A DNA stretch of 64,000 bases from a virus. The DNA lies in the IMG/VR virus record IMGVR_UViG_3300021964_000041, positions 1 to 64,000 of that record; one strand, given 5' to 3'. The translations under genes and the position numbers were made by a program. Shown here in pieces: positions 35,313 to 47,163 of the stretch. The stretch's first letter is position 1; each line of letters begins with the position of its first letter. Below the pieces are notes generated by a model, which made no database searches, was not told the origin of the DNA, and worked only from the letters and a program-made list of their open reading frames with translations.

Positions 35313-35744
35313 ATGGAGTGGACTTATCAGGGCAAAAAAGTACAAGAACTTCCCGCAGATTGCGAAGGATTTGTATACCTGATTACTAACACTACCAACA
35401 ATCGCAAGTACGTAGGCAAAAAACTCGCAAAATTCAAAACCACTAAGCCACCTCTCAAAGGCAAGAAAAACAAACGACGAGGCACAAAGGAATCAGATTG
35501 GAGAGACTATTGGGGATCTTCAGATCATCTAAATGCTGATGTTAAAAAATTAGGGCCAGAAAACTTCACAAGAGAAATTTTATACTATTGCAACAGCAGA
35601 GGCATAATGAGTTACCTTGAGGCTAGAGAACAATTTGAACGCCGTGTGTTAGAGACGGATGAGTATTACAATGGAATTATTAATGTTAGAGTTGGCAGTT
35701 CAAAAATTCTCAAAGAAGCACTAGAAAATCTAAAGGCAATATAA
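35313..35744 (+). CDS. GIY-YIG nuclease-domain protein
   Basis: This 143-aa protein has the GIY-YIG signature at GFVYLITN (19-26) and KYVGKK (32-37). Downstream residues that may be the catalytic Arg/Glu lie in FTREIL and SYLEAREQFERR. A very basic linker (about 40-60, KPPLKGKKNKRRG) would contact DNA. Such stand-alone GIY-YIG proteins in T4-like phages are often homing endonucleases, though some are structural-gene-associated nucleases. It has no separate DNA-recognition domain. It ends the early operon and lies just before a large structured non-coding stretch, a neighbourhood typical of mobile or intron-like elements, although no group I intron core is seen. Confidence 0.8.
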   Translation: MEWTYQGKKVQELPADCEGFVYLITNTTNNRKYVGKKLAKFKTTKPPLKGKKNKRRGTKESDWRDYWGSSDHLNADVKKLGPENFTREILYYCNSRGIMSYLEAREQFERRVLETDEYYNGIINVRVGSSKILKEALENLKAI

Positions 35745-35749
35745 CAGCA

Positions 35750-36165
35750 CATAAGGTTGGCGGGCCAGTTTGCAAATACCGCTGAGTAAAAGGTCCCCTG
35801 AGAAGGACACTCGTACACATTGATCGACCCCCCATGGGAGGAAGCCAACAAACAAATTGGGCTCACTGGTTAATGTAGATTGAATGCTGTCAGTCGAAAA
35901 CACATGTGTTTGAAAAAACTCCACGCAACGGAACGAGGCGGGAGGTAGCGTAGAAGACCGCGAAGCGGTTTGCGGTAGCAAAGCGATTTGTAAAGCAGTT
36001 TTTTACGTGATGTCGACGTAGGTAGGGGAAAGGTCAGAGCCCCACAAACAGGTGTATAAACAAAATACCTACTTCCAAGTCTTGGCTGTGACGAACTCAC
36101 ATGATGTTCAAGATTAGATGGAACCATAAACAGGTTCCGTCTGACTGAAACAATCTACATGATGC
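35750..36165 (+). ncRNA. Candidate large structured RNA, family unknown
   Basis: No convincing gene lies here, and base composition is clearly more G+C-rich than the flanks. Complementary pairs visible by eye are as follows. GTTGGC 35756-35761 pairs with GCCAAC 35844-35849. A 10-bp perfect closing stem joins ATGTAGATTG 35873-35882 to CAATCTACAT 36151-36160, with CAGTC 35891-35895 / GACTG 36143-36147 nested inside. Hairpins are ACCGC-GAA-GCGGT (35957-35969), TTGC-GGTA-GCAA (35970-35981), TGTGA-CGAAC-TCACA (36087-36101) and GGAACC-7nt-GGTTCC (36120-36138). GTAGGTA 36018-36024 pairs with TACCTAC 36066-36072 and encloses GGGG/CCCC. The strand is unknown, because stems are nearly symmetric; plus is favoured by the upstream operon. 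It could be an orphan phage RNA of the large ornate kind. Confidence 0.6.
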
Positions 36166-36250
36166 TAAATTGCTTCGCAATTATCTTTCATATATAAAGG
36201 AATAAATGTGTTCGAGCGATAGCGATAACACAGATGAACGTAGTTCATCT
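36166..36250. other. Run of three hairpins between convergent transcripts
   Basis: AATTGC-TTC-GCAATT (36168-36182), TGTGTT...AACACA (36207-36232) and an 8-bp AGATGAAC-GTA-GTTCATCT (36232-36250) stand in a row. None is followed by a clean U-tract. They may be the 3' end of the structured RNA or processing/termination structures between the plus-strand early operon and the minus-strand gp26 unit. Confidence 0.5.
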
Positions 36251-36256
36251 ACTAAC

Positions 36257-46619: not shown

Positions 46620-46716
46620 CAGATATGTTCCATTCGAAGTAATGGACTTATGCAGTACTAAACCCACTGCGTACCGGCTAGAACCCGGATCGGACTTCTA
46701 AAAAAGGAGAAAACAA
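46620..46716 (+). promoter_or_regulatory. Structured 5' leader RNA, copy 1
   Basis: Hairpins are TCCATT-6nt-AATGGA (46629-46646), GCAGT-9nt-ACTGC (46652-46670) and CCGG-7nt-CCGG (46674-46688), before the SD AAGGAG. The segment from CAGT to CTAGA resembles the leader at 49072-49175 and sits at the same distance (64 nt) from the ATG. Confidence 0.6.
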
Positions 46717-47163
46717 ATGGGTAGACCACTTAATAAAAGATACTTCGGCGAACCTACTGCGGGTGGAAATGAAATCAAAGTTGATTTTCACAACGGTACA
46801 AGTGTAGTTGAAGGACACATTGTAAGACAAAAAGGTAGCAAGAAGTTTGTAGTATCAGAAATTGGTGCTTCAGACACCGAATATACTTGCACATTAACAA
46901 CTGGTAAACTAATGTCAGCACTAGCGGCTGGTGAAATGGGTATCACGTTTAAAATGGACGATGCAGAAACTTACCAAGTTTCTAAAATTTCAGGTCGTAA
47001 AGCAACACTAGTTGCTCCAGATGCTACAGGTACTAACGCATATGACGGAAAGTCAGTGCCATGGAACTTTAACACATCTGTTGTAGACGGTGCGGCACAA
47101 GTTGAAGAGGCTGGTGACGACGATGTTGCTGGCGTTGATGACGACGATTTCGTTAACGCATAA
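46717..47163 (+). CDS. Virion protein of the MGRPLNKRYFG type
   Basis: This 148-aa protein starts MGRPLNKRYFGEPTAGGNEI, a start I associate with small structural proteins of marine T4-like phages near gp23. The body is beta-rich (GHIVRQKGSKKFVVSEIG, CTLTTGKLMSALAAGEM), ending in a very acidic tail (EEAGDDDVAGVDDDDFVNA). A head-decoration or tail role is possible; the sequence does not decide. It has its own late promoter, a structured leader, a strong SD (AAGGAGA) and its own terminator, so it is a one-gene unit with signs of high expression. Confidence 0.75.
   Translation: MGRPLNKRYFGEPTAGGNEIKVDFHNGTSVVEGHIVRQKGSKKFVVSEIGASDTEYTCTLTTGKLMSALAAGEMGITFKMDDAETYQVSKISGRKATLVAPDATGTNAYDGKSVPWNFNTSVVDGAAQVEEAGDDDVAGVDDDDFVNA

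Follow-up and report, generated by a model that had tools for sequence, protein, structure and literature searches.

Locus and covarying structure of the RNA

The window analysed, 64,000 nucleotides of T4-like phage DNA, was taken from a virus record of 79,465 bases. The order at the locus is gp47-gp46-orf76-GIY-YIG-RNA-gp26, with gp26 on the opposite strand, and the RNA sits between intact convergent genes. The gene on the gp26 side was called from a T4_baseplate match, gene order and length; the two genes which we take to be gp46 and gp47 were named from general knowledge together with gene order and length. The SegE-type GIY-YIG gene upstream of the RNA (Table 1) occurs as a single copy in the 79-kb record.

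An earlier note on this DNA had described positions 35750 to 36250 as a densely folded, G+C-richer region without a convincing gene, unlike a tRNA cluster, tmRNA or group I intron, and this description was borne out. No convincing gene was present between 35745 and 36256/36260, where the open reading frames encode 41 to 85 aa and all lie on the minus strand. The G+C content was 0.44-0.49, compared with about 0.33-0.40 around the region. The plus strand folded with -152 kcal/mol (z = -3.63), and 0 of 100 shuffled sequences folded as low; the minus strand gave z = -2.04. ARAGORN found 0 genes for tRNA or tmRNA. The Rfam scan proposed in the earlier note (4227 families, with the GOLLD, ROOL, HEARO and group I covariance models included) yielded nothing overlapping the RNA up to E = 10. 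The flanking genes are intact and none is interrupted, which also argues against a group I intron. By eye, the first 60 nt had looked similar to a td-type group I intron; this idea was discarded because Rfam gave it no support and the local helices do not form a group I core. Elsewhere in the window, a freshwater-2 RNA (RF02980) was detected with 73 bits at positions 46629-46719 (+), between two genes of the same phage.

Structure was assessed in an alignment of 15 close full-length relatives (A1), which contained 79 pairs in 14 helices, with 96% of the cells paired. Changes on both sides were found in 27 pairs, compared with 10.7 +/- 2.0 in shuffles, and in 74 cells, compared with 17.5. When the partners were slid by 1-3 columns as a control, 2-9 pairs were changed on both sides. 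Helices 12-14 accounted for 12 pairs changed on both sides, and helices 10 and 11 showed one-sided changes or were invariant in this close set. Among 30 freshwater relatives, a 5-bp pseudoknot of the 3' core was paired in 100% of the cells; 28 cells had changes on both sides and 0 were broken. The marine type has the same pseudoknot layout, with an exchange of GAC/GUC for GUG/CAC in a few variants, which represent few sequences.

Table 1. Features of the RNA and its surroundings (window positions)
Feature	Position	Strand	Remarks
Neighbouring SegE-type GIY-YIG gene	35313..35744	+	PF19835, E = 3.7e-35
Whole RNA, about 500 nt	35750..36252	+	Conserved span in close relatives; 14 covarying helices
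5' module	35759..35876	+	Helices 1-5, each with at least 1 pair changed on both sides
5' module stems	35759-35763/35779-35783, 35784-35787/35809-35812, 35793-35796/35805-35808	+	
5' module stems	35817-35826/35867-35876, 35844-35846/35860-35862	+	
Local hairpin 35878-35883/35890-35895	35878..35895	+	Helix 6; 98.9% paired, 2 pairs changed on both sides
Hairpin 35919-35922/35941-35944	35919..35944	+	Helix 7; contains conserved GGAACGA(A/G)GC
Variable insert	35945..36008	+	Missing or shorter in several relatives; gap in L013, L028, L044, L006
Conserved 3' core	36015..36072	+	Helices 8 and 9: stem 36018-36023/36067-36072, hairpin 36025-36028/36040-36043
Candidate pseudoknot in 3' core	36015-36017/36033-36035	+	By analogy with the 5-bp pseudoknot of freshwater relatives
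Twin heptamer copy 1, ACATGAT	36099..36105	+	Identical to copy 2
Hairpin 36116-36125/36133-36142 in short UUCA/UGAA stem (36107-36110/36146-36149)	36107..36149	+	Helices 10 and 11
Twin heptamer copy 2, ACATGAT	36157..36163	+	Identical to copy 1
3' hairpins 36168-36173/36177-36182, 36208-36212/36227-36231, 36232-36239/36243-36250	36168..36250	+	Helices 12-14
NATAAATA sites in the window	7092, 24485, 31309, 37346, 37386, 60174	-, -, -, +, -, +	

The earlier note had named two long-range helices, 35873-35882/36151-36160 and 35756-35761/35844-35849. Both pair perfectly in the window sequence, but neither is conserved. In the 15 close relatives each had 0 pairs changed on both sides, which is not above shuffles, and single pairs were broken in up to 11 of the 15 sequences. 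The covarying local hairpin 35878-35883/35890-35895 and local stem 35817-35826/35867-35876 account for the bases that had been assigned to the closing stem. The covariation check that the earlier note had called for therefore came out in favour of 14 other helices and against the ones named. The proposed boundaries were nearly exact, as relatives are conserved from about 35750 to 36252. Comparative sequence analysis shows an RNA of about 500 nt in which the 5' platform is exchangeable and the 3' core is conserved and pseudoknotted.

Relatives in phages and in marine bacteria

Viral contigs were gathered via the GIY-YIG protein and via gp26, and their RNAs were compared by nhmmer. Some 60 of 86 loci matched the window RNA at E < 0.1. 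Aquatic T4-like phages yielded more than 100 relatives, which nearly always adjoin the same GIY-YIG gene; together with the covariation, this conservation upholds the proposal of a large structured non-coding phage RNA. Conservation begins just behind the GIY-YIG gene and stops at about 36250. The 3' half is most widely kept and the 5' half is exchanged between groups of relatives, the 5' module of the window being swapped for others in more distant ones. Forty-five of the 66 GIY-YIG loci with at least 600 nt downstream matched by single-sequence search. Among the remaining 21, a family profile recovered L076, L077, L078 and L084, and a freshwater profile gave seven more, weaker matches; profile matches ending inside the GIY-YIG gene came from that gene and were excluded from the count. 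A blastn search for relatives in cultured phages and plasmids found none.

Where contigs reached far enough, the GIY-YIG gene was present in 120 of 122 loci with twin heptamers. L090 and L159 have it on the downstream instead of the upstream side of the RNA, still adjacent, and L182 has the RNA without the gene. Phage Melnitz encodes a 79% identical GIY-YIG protein gene with merely a short gap behind it.

The freshwater relatives link the RNA to the Rfam family Polynucleobacter-1 (RF01718). L083, obtained via the GIY-YIG protein, matched the window RNA with an nhmmer E of 3e-6 and carries RF01718 (59 bits) just before the 3' core that the two have in common. When further loci were scanned, 12 of 17 had RF01718 upstream of the core at 62-112 bits, which gives 13 loci at 59-112 bits with a cut-off of 37. 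R1, a covariance model built from the 3' core of the freshwater type, detected the GIY-YIG-adjacent place with E below 1e-4 in L038, L083, L180, L076, L024, L085, L039, L051 and L060. It does not match the window RNA itself; the link between the window and the freshwater type runs through L083 and L024, the latter matching the window RNA with an nhmmer E of 5e-12. Since the 5' part of the freshwater relatives is RF01718, Polynucleobacter-1 is one domain of a larger RNA. Polynucleobacter-1 was listed in 2010 from Burkholderiales and from fresh water and estuary (PMC2864571). It corresponds to the 5' domain of the freshwater and estuarine relatives, immediately before the shared 3' core, but RF01718 covers 141 nt, without the 3' core and the twin heptamers, and the relatives bearing it here sit in phage contigs. 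The 5' module of the window gave no match to the RF01718 covariance model up to E = 10.

A near-consensus sigma-70 promoter (11/12, spacer 17) was found 5-8 nt behind the GIY-YIG gene in seven loci of one group. Upstream of the RNA in the window, no promoter scored better than chance, so the RNA may there be co-transcribed with the gp47-gp46 operon and cut from its transcript. The sequence NATAAATA occurs six times in the 64-kb window, each time 13-70 nt upstream of an open reading frame of at least 80 aa. Placement shortly before open reading frames is expected of T4-type late promoters, which these sites apparently are.

A scan of one genome per species revealed true copies in four Rhodobacteraceae genomes, and a search within this family added one more copy-bearing genome; 3 of the 397 genomes searched hold the RNA. 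With model R1, matches to the copies in Rhodobacteraceae were weaker (E 1.6e-4 to 0.04), and the TGAGCG-AGCGA motif of the 3' hairpins is also present in them. L220 is a partial second copy in G001, and its heptamers differ by one base. A tyrosine recombinase of 188 aa is encoded 0.3-2.2 kb downstream on the same strand in the four complete copies with sufficient flanking sequence (L218, L219, L221 and L222) and in the partial L220, a count that leaves out L223, where the copy lies at a contig end. Of 199 genomes, 10 encode the recombinase, frequently more than once. In G003 (Nereida ignava), nine recombinase copies were found on contigs C4, C12, C17 and C20, several of them lying no more than about 1 kb from a contig end, as though flanking repeats had broken the assembly. 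Nereida ignava CECT 5292 also carries one copy of the RNA, L207.

In L218, L219, L221 and L222 the RNA is preceded by the box (T)TGATAAATA, which is also found upstream of protein genes in elements of this kind. L218 encodes a protein related to the phage clamp loader (phrog_168, E = 1.6e-25), of which a 97% identical copy is present in L219; homologues lie near further recombinase copies. Parts of these elements, namely the 188-aa tyrosine recombinase, a gp44-like clamp loader, a DUF6626 protein and TTGATAAATA boxes, recur in various combinations in L218, L219, L222, L237, L239, L241, L242 and L246-L249. The clamp-loader gene in two elements suggests that the integrative elements of Rhodobacteraceae may be satellites of T4-like phages. 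They look similar in kind to PICMIs, which are small marine bacterial islands dependent on virulent phages (PMC10803314), as judged here from gene content. They differ from these in host family and in having the gp44-type clamp loader, the T4-late-like boxes and the RNA.

Behind the same box, sequences resembling Polynucleobacter-1 by eye (CCGTTCTGATGTGAGACGGTG...ACTACCCC) were seen in L243 at 2381(-), L246 at 2557(-) and L249 at 4171(-). They may be diverged members of the RNA family; neither Rfam nor model R1 confirmed them, and among the three only L249 has twins (TTTAGAT).

Twin heptamers

The 3' part of the RNA carries two identical heptamers (Table 1). The core places them in joints, each is followed by a hairpin, and their start-to-start distance is 50-68 nt among the relatives, in values that are not multiples of three. 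A search pattern of two motifs with free bases inside gave 119 matches, in 114 of which the heptamers were identical; at least two of the five non-identical matches are due to chance. Because the pattern fixes part of the heptamer, relatives gathered without it were also examined, and the heptamers were identical in 32 of 32. Identical twins of the sequences TGCCAAG, TGTCAAG, GGTGAAG and GCATGAT occurred in loci that were missed by the pattern or lay outside its reach. The identical heptamers comprise about 17 sequence variants.

Parsimony gave about 26 heptamer changes on the GIY-YIG tree and about 20 on the gp46 tree, with the copies mismatched in 2 of 114 rows. These numbers are approximate because the FastTree trees contain many weak branches, and independent changes on supported branches amount to a handful.

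In the mutual information analysis, the heptamers were coupled only with each other. Their complement was not enriched within 520 nt upstream or 150 nt downstream. In predicted folds they were moderately unpaired (0.55 and 0.47, compared with 0.40 for all windows). Neither the heptamer nor its complement was in excess in about 1.16 Mb of flanks, and their use elsewhere as promoters or operators was rejected on this ground. A reading as codon plus stop, as in bypassing, had been suggested by the first variants. It was abandoned in view of the TGCCAAG, TGTCAAG and GGTGAAG twins, the spacings that are not divisible by three and the lack of an apparently conserved reading frame.

Possible functions and comparison with known RNAs

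Strict identity, free sequence and the lack of a partner within the RNA point to either one partner that meets both heptamers or pairing with the RNA's own gene. Tentatively, and at somewhat less than an even chance, we favour a trans-acting two-site docking RNA of the lytic cycle. Acting in trans, such an RNA would offer both heptamers to a single putative partner, either a protein or a nucleic acid from the phage or its host, which each of them would have to match and which would thereby be held or titrated twice. It might thereby serve replication, late expression or packaging at the phage stage; a phage-stage role is suggested by the satellite-like elements, which carry the RNA behind a T4-late-like box. 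Against docking, a partner in trans would have to change together with both copies about 20 times, which is demanding, the flanking kilobases show no enrichment of the heptamer or its complement, and the heptamers are only moderately unpaired. Possible, though unlikely, is a new two-site class whose heptamers, although free in sequence, stay identical because they base-pair with a nucleic acid that is shared or self-derived. The RNA would then be a twin-guide or self-priming RNA of T4-like phages and their satellites.

ColE1 RNA II is a structured transcript of about 550 nt, one segment of which pairs with the template DNA of a like segment, and the two segments must match. With rather low probability, the RNA acts in the same way: copy 1 in the nascent RNA would pair with the template DNA of copy 2, and the hybrid would prime replication. 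R-loop pairing of this kind requires identical copies and leaves their sequence free. It accounts for strict identity with about 17 sequences and for the absent partner within the RNA, and the 3' flank is A+T-rich and the length similar to that of RNA II. However, the turn in G-C skew, at about 30-32 kb, coincides with the switch in gene orientation and lies 4-6 kb from the RNA, which does not support an origin there, and seven mostly A-T base pairs form a weak nucleus. RNA II belongs to a plasmid and not to a phage, and the likeness is one of description, not of sequence or covariance match.

Lower still we place a homo-oligomeric ornate RNA, in which the heptamers would dock on identical receptors in neighbouring RNA copies, in the way of GOLLD and ROOL. 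GOLLD is a large ornate phage RNA of unknown function with a conserved 3' and a less conserved 5' region (PMC12286853). ROOL is a large pseudoknotted RNA of phages and prophages for which no protein partner is known (PMC12286853). The architecture with a conserved 3' and a variable 5' region resembles that of GOLLD in layout only, and the phage setting and the pseudoknot fit as well, the latter being shared with ROOL. However, a complementary receptor was not found in the RNA and no tRNA island is nearby. The RNA also differs from GOLLD in its length (about 500 nt, GOLLD often >800), in its twin heptamers and in the lack of a GOLLD model match; from ROOL it differs in gene context, in not lying near tRNAs and in giving no ROOL covariance model match.

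An RNA-protein machine with the adjacent GIY-YIG nuclease, with the heptamers as guides or cleavage sites, is less probable again. The gene adjoins the RNA in nearly all phage loci, even where its side is reversed (L090, L159), but L182 lacks it, the Rhodobacteraceae copies adjoin an integrase instead, and Melnitz has the gene with just a short gap behind it. No residues of the GIY-YIG protein could be tied to heptamer type, in a test that was without power. Improbable to a greater degree is a 3' untranslated structure of the gp47-gp46-GIY-YIG operon that stabilises or terminates the message. It would suit the start of the RNA close after the GIY-YIG stop codon in most loci, between convergent genes. 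The size is nevertheless far above need, the order is reversed in L090 and L159, the gene is missing in L182, and some phages and integrative elements have own promoters for the RNA.

Very doubtful is a recombination site, in which the heptamers would be overlap sequences of a tyrosine recombinase that match each other and are otherwise free. The seven-base identity, the free sequence and the recombinase downstream in the Rhodobacteraceae loci would agree with it, but the 79-kb phage record, which is a fragment, encodes no PF00589 protein and the surroundings covary in the manner of an RNA. In addition, the heptamer is not a flanking repeat of the elements, except for one further match each in L218 and L223. 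A chance fold in spacer DNA would explain why the long-range helices named in the earlier note are not conserved, but it is contradicted by covariation, synteny and wide conservation and has a negligible probability.

The RNA and its family are well supported as real. We regard it as a new family of the kind that GOLLD and ROOL represent, whose unusual feature is the pair of identical, co-changing heptamers; this agrees with the earlier suggestion of a relative of these RNAs or a new class, and Rfam contains no such class as a whole. A widespread family thereby joins the few large ornate phage RNAs known, and the orphan Rfam family Polynucleobacter-1 gains a home as one domain in a larger phage RNA. 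The shared RNA forms a link between T4-like phages that are virulent and marine bacterial elements that bear an integrase, and the twin heptamers, mutually identical yet free to change, provide a sharp and testable clue to the mechanism.
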